From a virus, in the IMG/VR virus record IMGVR_UViG_3300017783_000047, positions 1 to 46,806 of that record: a stretch of 46,806 nucleotides of DNA, one strand, 5' to 3'. Within the stretch, counting starts at the first letter, position 1; each line of letters begins with the position of its first letter. Below the pieces are notes generated by a model, which was not told where the DNA came from, ran no database searches, and saw nothing but the letters and a program-made list of their open reading frames with translations. Positions 11,112 to 46,045 of this stretch are shown here, piece by piece. The position numbers and the translations under genes were made by a program.

Positions 11112-11119
11112 TATTTATG
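11112..11119 (-). promoter_or_regulatory. Late promoter CATAAATA for the gp8 transcription unit
   Basis: The minus strand reads CATAAATA about 31 nt before the gp8 ATG and overlaps the stop codon of the 1,544-aa gene (11115-11117). It fits the NATAAATA late motif seen at three other sites in this window. Confidence 0.65.
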
Positions 11120-14100
11120 AGGTTTGTACAACCGTCTGATATTCAATATTTTTAATGCGATAAGAAGCACCAGCACTACCTGCTATTTTCTCACCTCCTA
11201 AGATAGCATATGCTATCGCACCAGAACCAGTTGTATCTGATACATCATTAGTAAATGTAATTGTTGGGTGTAAAATATTAGTTGTAATTTCCTGCTTATA
11301 ACCATATCCACCATTACTAATAGTTACAGAACTAACTTGGTCACCTGCTACTGTCATTACTGCAACCGCTGTTGATTGAATATCACCAGCATTTTCAATA
11401 ACTACAGTTGGTGGTGCTGAATAGTTTGTACCAGGTTCTTGTACAACGATATCGACAATTGAACTCCTAGCAGAAAATTCGTTTAGGAAACCGTTAACAC
11501 CAATATTAACATTACCTGTATTAAATGGTGTAATACTTTGAACAACCAATATACCCGTTGAAGTATCCCAAGAAACTACTGTTCCAGTAACTCCAGAAAG
11601 ATCGCCTGTTACAATCTCATTCACTCCATAATTTTGACCATTTCCATCGGCCTTATCTAAGGTAATCTTAACTTGTGCTGAATGTTCGACACCCTCGGAC
11701 AATCCACCCGCAGTAGAAACAGTTGCGAATTTTTGCTCAGGGAATGGAGTTGCATCTAGGATATTATCACCAATAGCAAATAGAGTGGTATTTGTACCAC
11801 CTTGTGTTTCTTCAATACCATATAGTGAATTGAAGATTCCGCCGTCTAAACTAATTTGATTTTCGTAATCCGTTCCTGCATTTGACAAATCAGGAATACC
11901 ATCTCCAGCACCATCGTTCTCTGCAATGTCAACAAAGTCGATATCATCGACAGTTACAATTCCAGTCAACTGCAATCTAAAGATTTGAGAACCTATACTA
12001 ACTTCTGTTGTATGTGGAAGTGCTGATCCTCCAGCACTTTCTGGTAATCCAGCATTAAATTGAACAATGGCATCTTCTGTAGAGGCAATACCAGCATCAA
12101 TAAATGCCAGTTCGTCAACTTCAAAAGTTACAAATAATTCCCTAGTGCTTGGTCTCCAATCGTAAACCTTGGCAATCTTACTACTAGCAGTTTCAACCCT
12201 TCTAATAACTCTATCACCAACATTAAAGTTGTAGTTGGAAATACCAGCAACATCTTGTGATGTATCAAGAATTATCCTTTGGTCGTAATTAAAGTTGGTT
12301 CCTCTAGTAAGACCTGTAAACTTTCCTCTGCTTTTTCCAGTATATGTAACAATCTCATTATTGAGAAGGAATGTACCAGAACCAGGGAATGCATCTGTAG
12401 ATGATACAAAAATTTCTTCAGAAGATGCATCAATATCTTTAGTAAGACCAGTAAGGTATTGGAAAGCACTATTGAATGATTGTCTGGCTTTTGTAGTCCT
12501 CTTCAAGTTAATCAGTTTTGTGAAGATGATATTAGGAGGATTTACATAACCACCACCCTGGTCAAGAACATCTATACTCGTTATTACACCTTGATTAATA
12601 TTGGCAATTGCCTTCGCACCCTGTCCTCCTCCACCATCAATTAAGATGTATGGGGAAGTTTGATAAAAATCACCCTCATCAATAATATTGATACTCGTAA
12701 CTTTGCCTAAAGAACTAATAGAGGCAGCACCCTGAGCACCCTGTCCACCACCACCTTCAAATATCAAAGTTGGAGGGGTTGCAAATGATCTACCTTCATT
12801 AAGTAGAGTCAATCCTGTAACTGATTGAACTACAGGAGATGCGGTTGCACCAGAACCTTCTCCACCGATAATTTGTGCCACTGCAGGAGAAAAATATCCA
12901 TCTCCAGTTTTAGTCATTTGAATGTATGATACAGTTCCATCGTCTTCTAAAACTACATTGCCCTCAGCAATAGTGGGAACTTCTGTTGCTAAATCTGGAA
13001 CAGTATCACCTTCAAACAAAGGTGTTCCAAAATATGTTGGTCCGACGCAATATGGAAAAGTTGGATTGCCTGAAGAATCTTCTGTTAAAAAATATGCATA
13101 TGTTCCATTAGGATATTCTGGAGTAGATATGTAACTACCATTATGTTCATCTAGGGTGCCTGCAGTCTCATCATAAATGTAATCTTGATAAAGACTACCC
13201 ATGGCATAACCATCTTGAACAGTTCTTATTCCATAGGATGCATTAGCATAACTAAAAGAATTTAAAACTCTAGGTGAGTCCGAAGGCATTGCAATAGTTA
13301 ATGACCTTGTAGTTGCAGAAATAAATCCCGAAATATAATTGTCATAAGTTACAGAAGAACCATCCAGAGTGTATGTAATACTTGGATGTTCATATAAATT
13401 CAGTTTATTTGCAATATCTGAAAGGTCTGATGCAGGATGCCAACCATCTTCAGCAGTAGATAGTAGTAAAATATTTCCATCATTAGAAGAATCATCCTGA
13501 TTGAAAACGTAAGTTTTACCTCGCTTCAGATTCAGGAAGGATGGAGAGGCAGCATCATATAAAAATTTATTATTACTAACAGTAACAGCATACGTGACTG
13601 TTTCTGCAGCAACTTGTTCGGGTCTTGCTCCGTCTACTTCAATACCAGATTTGAGACGATATGAGGAGGATGCTCTTACTACAGAGTTATTAGATCCAAA
13701 ATATCCATATGGTCCATAAATGGGATAACCGTCAAAGGACATACCCAAAATTTTAGAATGTCCGTCAGGATGACGAGATAAATCCTGTACTCCACCACCA
13801 TAAGTTATAGACTTAAGTCCATAAGAATCAAAACCAGTACCACTGTTGCCAAATTGGTAAACGTAAACAAGTTGATTTTCTTTTCTGGAGTCTGGAGGAA
13901 TACTTATAGTTACACTATTTAAAGTATCGAAGTTATAGTTGTTATATGAAACTAGGACACTAGAACCATATGCAGTACCACCAAAAAAGACTCTAAGACT
14001 TTCTTGAACATTATCAGGATTTTCGCCGCCATTGGTATCAGTTCCCCTGATAACTTCAAATGTCAACGTAGACACATTGCGGAGATCTAAATATAGTCTG

Positions 14101-15749
14101 AGTTGTCTGTTACCAGCTTGTCTTCCAAATACAATATGCCTACCAATATCAAATCCACCAGATGTTCCAGTACCATTTCCACCATCTTCAATTCCTATGT
14201 TCAGAAAACTAGCGAGTGAACCTGTATACTGAGTTTGAATCTCATCAGGTAGAATTACAACATCTTCATTGTAGTAATCTCTGATATAATAATTATTTTC
14301 GGGTTCTTCATCTTCAATTTCAGTATCAAGAACCATATACCCTTCATGCCCAGCATAACCAGACATATAACGGTGATACTGACAATAATAGTAAATTCTA
14401 TTAGTTTCGTCAGCATTCATAATGAATAATGCTCGGAACGGATTTTCATAATCGGTTCCGAGAGCACCTGATGCTCCAGTACTATTATAATATAAAGTAC
14501 CAGCATTCAATATACCATCTTGTGTGGTACTGAATTGCATTGGATGTCCAAAAGGAAAAGTATCACTAACTTGATTACTAGGATCATCCTGATTCCAAAT
14601 AATTACATAATTCCGTTTAACTTTAATATTCTCTGGAGCGAGATAATATTGTCCTGCAATAAAAGGTCCAAACTCCTCAGCCTCTACGCCAAAGTCAATA
14701 TAAAAAATACCTGCAGGGAATGTTGTGGGTTCTGTAGAAACTGTGAATGAAAATCCAGTAGAACCCAATATTCTATCTTCTACAGTAAACACTCCAGTTA
14801 CTTGTCTAATATAGACTGAGGTGATTAAATTATTACCATCTCTTATAATTTTTGCAATTTCTCCAGATACAGAATTATCCCCAATCTTTAATACTGTTCT
14901 TCCTACCTCCATAGGATTAAGAACTTCATCAATACCAGATACAGTTAGTAATACATTATCAACTTCAGTTTTTACATTCCAAGTAAAAACTTCATGCAAT
15001 CCCCAATCAAGCACTCCATGTGTAGTTTTAAAATGCTCAACTAATTTAGATGACTGATAGTAATAAGTTTGATTATCGATAATTCCATCGTATACATCAG
15101 TATTCTTAGGGTTATCATTATAGACTGTATCTAATTCAAATCCTTCTGGAGCACCACCAACTGCATTTCCCCATTCTGGTGTATGGAGTAATGTACCATT
15201 GGCCATAATGCCAAGTGATTTATTCTTCTGAAAAGGTCTATTTTGACCAAAAGGTACTTGCTTACCCCCTCTATAAATGAAAGTTTGATCGAAACTTCTA
15301 TCTACAATAGAACCCGCTCCACCAGAACGTTCTGAGAAAATATCAGCGGGTTTGGGGTCATTATCAGATACAATTCTGAGTCTATCCGTATCGGATTGGA
15401 AGGTTCCTAAAGTTGGTGAGTTTGGATGACTTTGCCAAATTCTATTAACATCAAAAGAATCTACAACACCAGTAGTTTCTGCCGAGGGGATAATATTAAG
15501 TCTTAATGGGTCATACCCCCTACCCCTACTAAGAACACGTACATGAACAATCTTACCTGAAGGACCATCAATGATAGGATATAGTAAACATTCTTCACTA
15601 GGTGTCCCACAACCAGTGACCGTTAATCTTGGAGGATCTTCAGGGTCATATCCACTTCCAGGATTAATAACCTCTACTGCGCGAACGCCAAATAATTTGT
15701 CAAAGATTGGTTTAATCTCTGCGCCAGAGCCAGGAACTGTTCTTGCCAT
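11115..15749 (-). CDS. Large tail protein with YHYH and cupredoxin-like domains, 1,544 aa
   Basis: The N-terminus (about 1-110) has GSGY-type beta repeats. Residues about 376-475 form a cupredoxin-like unit: VKRNYVIIWNQDDPS, then His402 (GHPMQFSTTQDG) and Cys456-x2-His459-x2-Met462 (YCQYHRYM), the His/Cys/His/Met set of type-1 copper sites. Residues about 655-680 contain HSKILGMSFDGYPIYGPYGY and about 870-900 PEYPNGTYAYFLTED, both hallmarks of YHYH-domain proteins. A second, weaker cupredoxin-like stretch (LKRGKTYVFNQDDSS) lies between them near 730. The C-terminal 600 residues are GSGY/GGGGQGA repeats and TSGA-type modules. It lies between the 408-aa fibre-like gene and gp8, within the baseplate cluster. 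No T4 counterpart is recognised; the position could correspond to a peripheral wedge or fibre-attachment protein. Metal binding is inferred from residues only. Confidence 0.82.
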   Translation of the reverse strand: MARTVPGSGAEIKPIFDKLFGVRAVEVINPGSGYDPEDPPRLTVTGCGTPSEECLLYPIIDGPSGKIVHVRVLSRGRGYDPLRLNIIPSAETTGVVDSFDVNRIWQSHPNSPTLGTFQSDTDRLRIVSDNDPKPADIFSERSGGAGSIVDRSFDQTFIYRGGKQVPFGQNRPFQKNKSLGIMANGTLLHTPEWGNAVGGAPEGFELDTVYNDNPKNTDVYDGIIDNQTYYYQSSKLVEHFKTTHGVLDWGLHEVFTWNVKTEVDNVLLTVSGIDEVLNPMEVGRTVLKIGDNSVSGEIAKIIRDGNNLITSVYIRQVTGVFTVEDRILGSTGFSFTVSTEPTTFPAGIFYIDFGVEAEEFGPFIAGQYYLAPENIKVKRNYVIIWNQDDPSNQVSDTFPFGHPMQFSTTQDGILNAGTLYYNSTGASGALGTDYENPFRALFIMNADETNRIYYYCQYHRYMSGYAGHEGYMVLDTEIEDEEPENNYYIRDYYNEDVVILPDEIQTQYTGSLASFLNIGIEDGGNGTGTSGGFDIGRHIVFGRQAGNRQLRLYLDLRNVSTLTFEVIRGTDTNGGENPDNVQESLRVFFGGTAYGSSVLVSYNNYNFDTLNSVTISIPPDSRKENQLVYVYQFGNSGTGFDSYGLKSITYGGGVQDLSRHPDGHSKILGMSFDGYPIYGPYGYFGSNNSVVRASSSYRLKSGIEVDGARPEQVAAETVTYAVTVSNNKFLYDAASPSFLNLKRGKTYVFNQDDSSNDGNILLLSTAEDGWHPASDLSDIANKLNLYEHPSITYTLDGSSVTYDNYISGFISATTRSLTIAMPSDSPRVLNSFSYANASYGIRTVQDGYAMGSLYQDYIYDETAGTLDEHNGSYISTPEYPNGTYAYFLTEDSSGNPTFPYCVGPTYFGTPLFEGDTVPDLATEVPTIAEGNVVLEDDGTVSYIQMTKTGDGYFSPAVAQIIGGEGSGATASPVVQSVTGLTLLNEGRSFATPPTLIFEGGGGQGAQGAASISSLGKVTSINIIDEGDFYQTSPYILIDGGGGQGAKAIANINQGVITSIDVLDQGGGYVNPPNIIFTKLINLKRTTKARQSFNSAFQYLTGLTKDIDASSEEIFVSSTDAFPGSGTFLLNNEIVTYTGKSRGKFTGLTRGTNFNYDQRIILDTSQDVAGISNYNFNVGDRVIRRVETASSKIAKVYDWRPSTRELFVTFEVDELAFIDAGIASTEDAIVQFNAGLPESAGGSALPHTTEVSIGSQIFRLQLTGIVTVDDIDFVDIAENDGAGDGIPDLSNAGTDYENQISLDGGIFNSLYGIEETQGGTNTTLFAIGDNILDATPFPEQKFATVSTAGGLSEGVEHSAQVKITLDKADGNGQNYGVNEIVTGDLSGVTGTVVSWDTSTGILVVQSITPFNTGNVNIGVNGFLNEFSARSSIVDIVVQEPGTNYSAPPTVVIENAGDIQSTAVAVMTVAGDQVSSVTISNGGYGYKQEITTNILHPTITFTNDVSDTTGSGAIAYAILGGEKIAGSAGASYRIKNIEYQTVVQTS

Positions 15750-15757
15750 TTACTTTA

Positions 15758-16984
15758 TTAGTTTACTACGACGATAGTGCCAGCCATGGCGGCGTGTACG
15801 GTACACTGATAATACAGTGTTGTAGGAGCATCCATAGGAACAGTCCAATAGAGAACTGAAGTACCATTACCAGACTGTCCAACAGTGTATGGATTCCCAG
15901 AAAGTCCTGTTGTTGATTGAATTCTCAATGGATGACTTGCGCCATTTGAACTATTGTCAAAAGCGTAAGTGAATCCCCTATAAACGTAAATGGTTGGGTC
16001 ATCTTGTGTTACAGGAAATCCAGCACCACTAAAAGTAAAGTGATTAAATCCATTAGAACCCAGTTCAAACCAAGTTAAAGGACTTTGACTTCTAACCCAA
16101 TTTGTGCCGTTATAATAGAAACTATCACCTTGCACCAGACTACTCAAATCAACATTTGATAGAGTATCTAATGTACTTGGAACAACTCCAGAAAAATTAA
16201 CTGTTACAGTATCTCCAACAATTGCTGTATCAATATCAGTGCCTCCCGCAATAATTAAAGTATCAGTTCCACTGTTTGCAGTAGTACTACCTGTATCAGC
16301 AGTAACAGTTTGGAACAAATTTAATGCTGTGAGTCCAGACTGGTCGTCTTGAGGAATCCACTTACTGGAAGAAGCACTCCACTTTAATACCTGGTCATTA
16401 GCAGGTGCAACTGTAGTAGTGTCAACATCATTTAAAAAATCAATACTCGAATATTCTGTCGCTATCTTCGCTGCAGTATCACCAACACCACCCGCAGTTA
16501 CATTAATATTTACATAGGGGTTGTCATCTCCGTCAACAGTGAAAAAATATCCAGTATATGTTGCTGATGCAGGAGCTACACCAAGACTGGTGTATTCATT
16601 GATATATCTAATTTTTGTAGGAAAATCTACGGTCCCATCATCACCATCAAAGGTTGAAGTGATAGAACCTGCAACAATCCTCAAATCTCCAGTACCATTT
16701 GGAACTAAAGAAATGTTATTGTTACTTGATGATGTAATATTATTATTATTTACATCTAATGCTGTTGTTAGGAGACCTAGATCTCCAGGTACAAAACTGG
16801 TTCCGTTATACTTCAACACTTGGTTTGTTGCAGCGTTGCTAACGTTAAGGGTTAGATTAGTTCCGTTACCAAAAGCAGAATAAATTTCATCAAAGTTGTC
16901 ATTAATTTTATCACCACCAACACGAAGGGTATCCCCCGTGTTGTCATTTGCTGTAGTACCTAAACCAAGTGATTGTTTTGTCAT
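15758..16984 (-). CDS. Fibre-like tail protein with C-terminal cupredoxin-like domain, 408 aa
   Basis: The N-terminus (QSLGLGTTANDNTGDTLRVG, then GDKINDNFDEIYSAFG) is a motif at the start of many phage tail-fibre and whisker proteins that mount on the baseplate. The middle (about 45-300) is Thr/Asn/Gly-rich beta sequence with NNNNITSSSNNNISLVPNGTGDL, common in cyanophage fibres. The last 110 residues begin with TIYVYRGFTYAFDNSS and contain His351 (ASHPLRI), Cys394, His397 and Met400 (YYQCTVHAAMAG), a type-1-copper-like ligand set with C-x2-H-x2-M spacing. There is no signal peptide, so this is not an exported host-like plastocyanin. A perfect late promoter lies 18 nt upstream, and the next gene begins 8 nt after its stop. 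Role in the tail is by inference. Confidence 0.82.
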   Translation of the reverse strand: MTKQSLGLGTTANDNTGDTLRVGGDKINDNFDEIYSAFGNGTNLTLNVSNAATNQVLKYNGTSFVPGDLGLLTTALDVNNNNITSSSNNNISLVPNGTGDLRIVAGSITSTFDGDDGTVDFPTKIRYINEYTSLGVAPASATYTGYFFTVDGDDNPYVNINVTAGGVGDTAAKIATEYSSIDFLNDVDTTTVAPANDQVLKWSASSSKWIPQDDQSGLTALNLFQTVTADTGSTTANSGTDTLIIAGGTDIDTAIVGDTVTVNFSGVVPSTLDTLSNVDLSSLVQGDSFYYNGTNWVRSQSPLTWFELGSNGFNHFTFSGAGFPVTQDDPTIYVYRGFTYAFDNSSNGASHPLRIQSTTGLSGNPYTVGQSGNGTSVLYWTVPMDAPTTLYYQCTVHAAMAGTIVVVN

Positions 16985-45250: not shown

Positions 45251-45434
45251 AATCTTGGTAGGATACAACTAGGTTAGTTTGATTTGTTTTATGTTTAGAG
45301 TGTAATGCTATATCAGGGTGTTTAGGATATTCATGAATACAGATAGTTACATATTGTTCATCGATGAAATTGATGTAACCAGTGTGATGTTTATAGGAGA
45401 CAGTTTGTCCCTTAACGAATTCCTTAAACTTCAT
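45204..45434 (-). CDS. Conserved cyanophage hypothetical protein, 76 aa
   Basis: The sequence MKFKEFVKGQTVSYKHHTGY, then INFIDEQYVTICIHEYPKHP, resembles a small beta-barrel: GQxVSYxxxxGYINFIDEQYVTICI looks like two to three strands of an SH3-like fold. The second half contains a conserved-looking H/K/N-rich part (LHSKHKTNQTNLVVSYQDYD). From memory, similar short proteins are frequent in T4-like cyanophages and have no known function. Its ATG overlaps the stop of the 2OG oxygenase gene (ATGA at 45431-45434), so the two are probably co-translated. RNA or protein binding through the barrel would be a guess. Confidence 0.82.
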   Translation of the reverse strand: MKFKEFVKGQTVSYKHHTGYINFIDEQYVTICIHEYPKHPDIALHSKHKTNQTNLVVSYQDYDLIQRTTTLRQDNI

Positions 45435-46045
45435 TGATTGTCCCTGTTGAATATAGAGTGAGTGAAATAGTTTAATGCAATAACGATACGATAAGGGGCA
45501 TCTGTATGATTAGAACCAGAGTGCATGATTCTATTATCGAAAGTGACCAATCTATTCTTTTTTGATTCTACTTCAGTATAGTTAAATTGTCCATCATCAG
45601 TAACAGTTCGGAATGTTGTTTTACCGTTGTTATCATTTACATAGTAGATAGAAGTAAGACCAGGGGAAGATTCATCAGTATGAAAACCGTGAAGGGTTTG
45701 TGTTTCTTCCCATGGGTGAATGTTGCCTTTCACTCTAAAAAGAACGTCAGGATTAAGTTGAGTAATAAGGGGTTGAATTAAGGGGCATTGTTCAGAGTTT
45801 TCCTGACCATATCTCCAGAATACATGAGAGAATTGCCAATTACGATTAGGGGCACAAACTATATCAACACCTTCATATTCACCATCTTTTTGAGGTAAGA
45901 CTTCACCCCAATACCAAGGGAAATAAGATGACACATCAGTCATTTCATTAATTAACCAATCACAATAATCATCAGGCATAAAATCATCTTGAACAATGAT
46001 ATTATAGTTAATGGGAGTGGATGCGATTGGGATACTTAATGACAT
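45431..46045 (-). CDS. 2OG-Fe(II) oxygenase, 204 aa
   Basis: Members of this superfamily use 2-oxoglutarate, O2 and Fe(II) to hydroxylate proteins, nucleic acids or small molecules; several occur in cyanophages. The iron ligands are visible: His122-x-Asp124 (GFHTDESSPG) and His175 (RIMHSGSNH), with Arg186 (APYRIVIALNY) as the probable 2OG carboxylate partner. The strand SIYYVND and the sequence KKNRLVTFDN give the usual double-stranded beta-helix order. The N-terminal 110 residues (DDFMPDDYCDWLINEM, PWYWGEV) are typical of the prolyl-hydroxylase-like branch of phage enzymes. The substrate is unknown. It is followed by the 76-aa gene with an ATGA overlap. No SD is visible before the ATG. All key residues are present, so it should be active. 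Confidence 0.9.
   Translation of the reverse strand: MSLSIPIASTPINYNIIVQDDFMPDDYCDWLINEMTDVSSYFPWYWGEVLPQKDGEYEGVDIVCAPNRNWQFSHVFWRYGQENSEQCPLIQPLITQLNPDVLFRVKGNIHPWEETQTLHGFHTDESSPGLTSIYYVNDNNGKTTFRTVTDDGQFNYTEVESKKNRLVTFDNRIMHSGSNHTDAPYRIVIALNYFTHSIFNRDNQ

Follow-up and report, generated by a model that had tools for sequence, protein, structure and literature searches.

A cupredoxin-like domain with a predicted type-1 copper site at the C-terminus of the cyanophage baseplate protein gp9

The C-terminal third of gp9 in the DNA analysed here almost certainly has a cupredoxin fold, judging from its structural model, and very probably carries a metal site maintained by selection, judging from the conservation of four predicted ligands among its relatives. 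The DNA (referred to as the window; 46,806 nucleotides, positions 1–46,806 of IMG/VR virus record IMGVR_UViG_3300017783_000047) is near-identical to Synechococcus phage ACG-2014g (Kyanoviridae). The computed features, namely the fold class, the ligand positions, their strict conservation and the modular recurrence of the domain in tail proteins of marine phages, are well supported. Beyond these we infer metal binding, copper as the probable metal, and stabilisation of the joint between fibre and baseplate by the metal-loaded domain, a combined reading that falls just on the likely side.

Architecture of gp9

The gene (15758..16984, minus strand) encodes a protein of 408 amino acids that is identical to the gp9 of ACG-2014g, a baseplate wedge or long-tail-fibre connector. 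It matches PHROG 677 (E 1.5e-186), and its relatives are annotated as baseplate wedge or tail fibre connector. Residues 3–60 (16805..16978, minus strand) make up the N-terminal baseplate-attachment region, which matches Pfam T4_gp9_10_N (36.7 bits, cut-off 25, E 5.7e-9) and the PDB entries for gp10 and gp9 of T4-like phages; the baseplate motif proposed in the initial annotation is thus borne out. This region and the genomic place of the gene are alike in T4 gp9 and the gp9 of the window. Sequence similarity to T4 gp9 and gp10 stops at about residues 3–61, with none in the C-terminal domain. That domain is unannotated because the Pfam search of gp9 returned no family match in the C-terminal third.

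Positions 15758–16090 correspond to residues 299–408. The cupredoxin-like domain itself is assigned to residues 301–408 (15761..16084, minus strand) by AlphaFold2, by Foldseek and by profile matches to copper nitrite reductase (CuNiR), amicyanin and plastocyanin. Three histidines (315, 351 and 397), three methionines (1, 384 and 400) and one cysteine (394) are present in the whole protein. The predicted ligands, which the ORF translation places exactly where the initial annotation had them, are His351 (codon 15932..15934; the N-terminal ligand, within an HP motif), Cys394 (15803..15805; the thiolate ligand and sole cysteine of gp9), His397 (15794..15796; the second histidine ligand) and Met400 (15785..15787; the axial ligand position). 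All four codons lie on the minus strand and all four residues are invariant.

Fold of the C-terminal domain

The AlphaFold2 model of residues 301–408, for which 55 natural sequences served as input, has a pLDDT of 95.9 and a pTM of 0.88. In the full-length monomer model (pLDDT 71.6) the C-terminal domain reaches ~92, and the rest is too weak for placement in a trimer. According to DSSP on the domain model, His351 immediately precedes the strand formed by residues 353–356 in the middle of the domain, Cys394 lies at the end of the penultimate strand (389–394), and the loop preceding the last strand (401–407) holds His397 and Met400. In the model, this arrangement of ligands and strands is that of plastocyanin. 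The initial annotation had held that a fold with the four residues far apart would speak against the site; as far as the strand positions from DSSP allow a judgement, the model gives no such dispersed arrangement.

Foldseek gives 16 matches in the PDB at E<0.001, every one of them a rusticyanin, copper nitrite reductase, pseudoazurin or plastocyanin. Lower ranks hold further pseudoazurins and plastocyanins, AcoP, small laccases, CueO and chains of coagulation factor V/VIII, the A domains of which are cupredoxin-like. One entry falls outside the cupredoxin set (SO1698, 3nji, rank 20). Among the PDB matches listed, TM-scores are 0.36–0.59 and rmsd values 4.5–10 Å, so the gp9 domain would be a distant cupredoxin. 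An immunoglobulin fold was considered and rejected: a single-sequence search gave weak matches to antibody light chains through YYxC, and both the profile and the fold searches favour cupredoxins.

Sequence relatives and known copper proteins

A profile (A1) built from 20 divergent copies of the domain, which share 25–83% identity with the gp9 copy of the window, matches PDB sequences of CuNiR (1.4e-5), amicyanin (5e-5) and plastocyanin (6e-5). When the profile is dominated by gp9 copies, amicyanin is the best PDB match (1.3e-4). All four ligands are in register in the A1 alignment to Chlamydomonas plastocyanin. The register of the first histidine depends on the alignment: it is lost against amicyanin and in one comparison by hhalign. 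The gp9 copy of the window matches no Pfam copper family. Weak matches to Pfam Copper-bind (PF00127) occur in five of the 20 relatives, and the copy in a P-SSM2 fibre protein exceeds the cut-off of that family (23.3 versus 21.2 bits). The PROSITE blue-copper pattern has a proline or glycine shortly before the loop histidine. It fits only 13 of 269 liganded copies; proline or glycine is mostly absent from this position, and the gp9 copy reads CTVH.

A close parallel in ligand spacing is amicyanin from Paracoccus, which combines a cupredoxin fold with the same Cys-x2-His-x2-Met spacing (Cys92, His95 and Met98; PMC12723479) as Cys394, His397 and Met400. The spacing had been described as unusually short, a description that does not hold, as it recurs in amicyanin, in the engineered amicyanin-type loop of 2vmj (CTPHPFM, according to the entry title) and in CuNiR 9cck (CTLHPWMKGTI, versus CTVHAAMAGTI in gp9). 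The loops are not identical: amicyanin has CTPHPFM, whereas gp9 has CTVHAAM and lacks the proline, and the first histidine stands in PHN in amicyanin and in HP in gp9. Amicyanin is a free electron carrier, while the gp9 domain is fused to a baseplate protein. Plastocyanin, pseudoazurin, rusticyanin and CuNiR domains match the gp9 domain in Foldseek with a TM of only about 0.5–0.6, and the gp9 domain lacks an electron-transfer context.

Conservation of the predicted ligands

In the alignment of the 20 divergent copies, no column is invariant except H, P, C, H and M. All four ligands are kept in each of the 159 distinct complete gp9-type copies (two more were set aside as apparently incomplete at a contig end) and in all 26 that remain after dereplication at 80%; copies were sampled by similarity to gp9-type, and these counts fit close and intermediate relatives best. 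Shuffled gp9 sequences contain C-x2-H-x2-M in 8.5e-5 of trials, and this motif plus a histidine 20–70 residues upstream in 1.5e-5. The conservation of the predicted ligands is far stronger evidence than the shuffling figures, and it rules out a chance motif. A disulfide role for Cys394 is also rejected, as gp9 has no second cysteine.

The neighbouring gene (11115..15749, minus strand; PHROG 708) encodes a 1544-amino-acid baseplate wedge protein with a YHYH domain and two further copies of the module. The first of these (residues 371–465, 14355..14639, minus strand; profile match E 4.4e-21) contains H402, C456, H459 and M462, and the four ligands are kept in 76 of 77 relatives. The other (residues 714–834, 13248..13610, minus strand; HMM match 1.2e-25) has lost its ligands, which are present in only one of 41 relatives. 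The fold can therefore survive without the site. In L130, a relative from IMG/VR, the second of these two copies in the baseplate protein, too, has all four ligands. A distant copy in a fibre of phage RN05-S (L087:2947-3264) has lost the first histidine, the cysteine and the loop histidine and kept the methionine. Because the ligands are strict in gp9 while the domain persists elsewhere after their loss, the pattern points to selection on a metal site beyond the constraint of the fold. A purely structural relic, one of the options in the initial annotation, is disfavoured by the same contrast between gp9 and its sister copy. The proposal of a cupredoxin-like domain with a full type-1 ligand set gains support from the model, Foldseek, profiles and conservation alike.

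Distribution in marine phages

A search with the gp9 domain brought up 352 phage records, and every name among them refers to Synechococcus, Prochlorococcus, cyanophage, marine virus, uncultured or Pelagibacter. The domain is not confined to gp9: fibre proteins of further marine myoviruses, of T7-like podoviruses and of one pelagiphage have it too. It occurs with intact ligands inside long-fibre and other tail proteins of S-SCSM1, P-SSM2 and Bellamy, near the N-terminus of fibre proteins in the T7-like phages P-GSP1 and P-SCSP2, and, in a fibre of the Pelagibacter phage Baldr, towards the C-terminus. A role specific to photosynthesis is rejected, since Baldr keeps the ligands and its host is a SAR11 heterotroph. 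Conversely, the gp9 of phage S-H38 (L260:4001-5140) is without the cupredoxin domain and ends in another that shares 44% identity with the C-terminus of the S-SCSM1 long-tail-fibre protein; the gp9 C-terminus is therefore a swappable module.

A scan of genome contigs yielded a single gp9-type contig, NZVD01000020.1 (L263), binned in a Rhodopirellula MAG. Besides gp9 (domain 68% identical) it contains the adjacent baseplate gene, and it is probably of cyanophage origin, placed in a planctomycete MAG by the binning. The record of the P-HM2 structural protein PHM2_106 (L090) lists PF07686 (Ig V-set), and the protein holds two cupredoxin-like copies with all ligands; in current Pfam, immunoglobulin and copper families are matched only below threshold. 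In some structural proteins of cyanophages, a domain called 'Ig-like' may thus be a cupredoxin. A literature search confined largely to open papers found none linking cupredoxins to phage tails, and to our knowledge the phage tail is a place where the cupredoxin domain has not been described before.

Possible functions

In T4, gp9 is a trimer (18 chains). Its N-terminus binds gp7, its C-terminal domain receives the long tail fibre in a coaxial arrangement, and gp9 swivels with the fibre (PMC3004832). By positional homology, the cupredoxin domain would be the fibre socket. It was originally described as a tip on a fibre-like protein, which is doubtful given that the protein is gp9 and that the C-terminal domain of its T4 counterpart receives the long tail fibre (PMC3004832). 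The proposed mechanism is as follows. The C-terminal third of gp9 would form a cupredoxin domain whose type-1 copper site is intact and lies on an amicyanin-type loop, in the place where T4 gp9 receives its fibre. The site would hold a soft metal ion, most likely copper, acquired during or after assembly. With this ion linking the C-terminal hairpin and the His351 loop, the socket domain would stay rigid where fibre and baseplate meet. From the ligand conservation, the tail of the phage is likely to hold copper or some similar metal at this site, and copper itself is a reasonably likely native metal. The chances that the role of the domain is mainly one of structure or docking seem about even; its presence also at the N-terminus of podovirus fibres speaks against this role.

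Among the alternatives, the likeliest is a role in adsorption, although it too seems rather unlikely. Here the metal-loaded domain would contact a host surface molecule or a component of metal uptake, much as the Trojan-horse idea for phage tails has it for iron, but with copper. Iron-binding HxH motifs have been described in the fibre tips of T4 gp37 and of Alteromonas phage R22Y, where the Trojan-horse hypothesis was proposed (PMC11705849). They resemble the prediction for gp9 in placing a metal site on the adsorption apparatus, and differ in being His-x-His clusters for iron, whereas each gp9 chain would have a single His2-Cys-Met site, set in a cupredoxin domain. The mobility of the domain among marine phage adsorption proteins (gp9, fibres, and podovirus and pelagiphage fibres) is in keeping with such a role, as is the fact that all the matched records are by name phages of marine picoplankton or marine or uncultured viruses. 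However, the same ligands are found across hosts as unlike as cyanobacteria and SAR11, which counts against a single specific receptor. In addition, the corresponding domain of T4 serves as a fibre socket, and some of the proteins have the domain at their N-terminus, on the side of the virion.

Phages are assembled in the cytoplasm, where free copper is scarce. This favours a different metal, zinc or another, or Cu(I) only, forming a structural clasp without blue-copper chemistry, a reading slightly less likely again than adsorption. Phage tails do contain structural metals, the iron of the T4 gp37 HxH motifs being an example (PMC11705849), but a His-Cys-His-Met set with axial methionine in a cupredoxin fold is that of type-1 copper, and the family includes a Pfam Copper-bind member. 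It is improbable that marine cyanophages and their relatives bear on the adsorption apparatus a dedicated type-1 copper module whose copper comes from seawater or the infected cell and serves to attach the phage to its host or to trigger infection. The least likely alternative by far is a redox function, with electron transfer or redox sensing in the baseplate triggering or gating infection: the ligand set and loop are those of electron-transfer cupredoxins, but gp9 has no partner or second redox centre and its neighbourhood suggests no electron-transfer chain.

Implications and other features of the window

If the site of the preferred reading, a metal-loaded domain stabilising the fibre-baseplate joint, does hold copper, the tails of very common ocean viruses would be copper proteins; at the stoichiometry of T4, gp9 alone would contribute 18 sites to each virion. 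The discussion of phage tails as metal ligands in the sea, which centres on iron, would then extend to copper, and the fibre-baseplate joint would gain a coloured, mutable handle. An annotation is in any case gained for a domain of several hundred sequenced phages that has so far been labelled only 'connector' or 'hypothetical'.

Two other regions of the window may be mentioned. The gene at 45431-46045 (minus strand) matches a PHROG annotated as 'DNA endonuclease V' (2.6e-49) and, weakly, the Pfam 2OG-Fe(II) oxygenase family (1.6e-4); the endonuclease label may be wrong. At 17012-38071 (minus strand), a single structural ORF of 7019 amino acids takes up 21 kb of the window.
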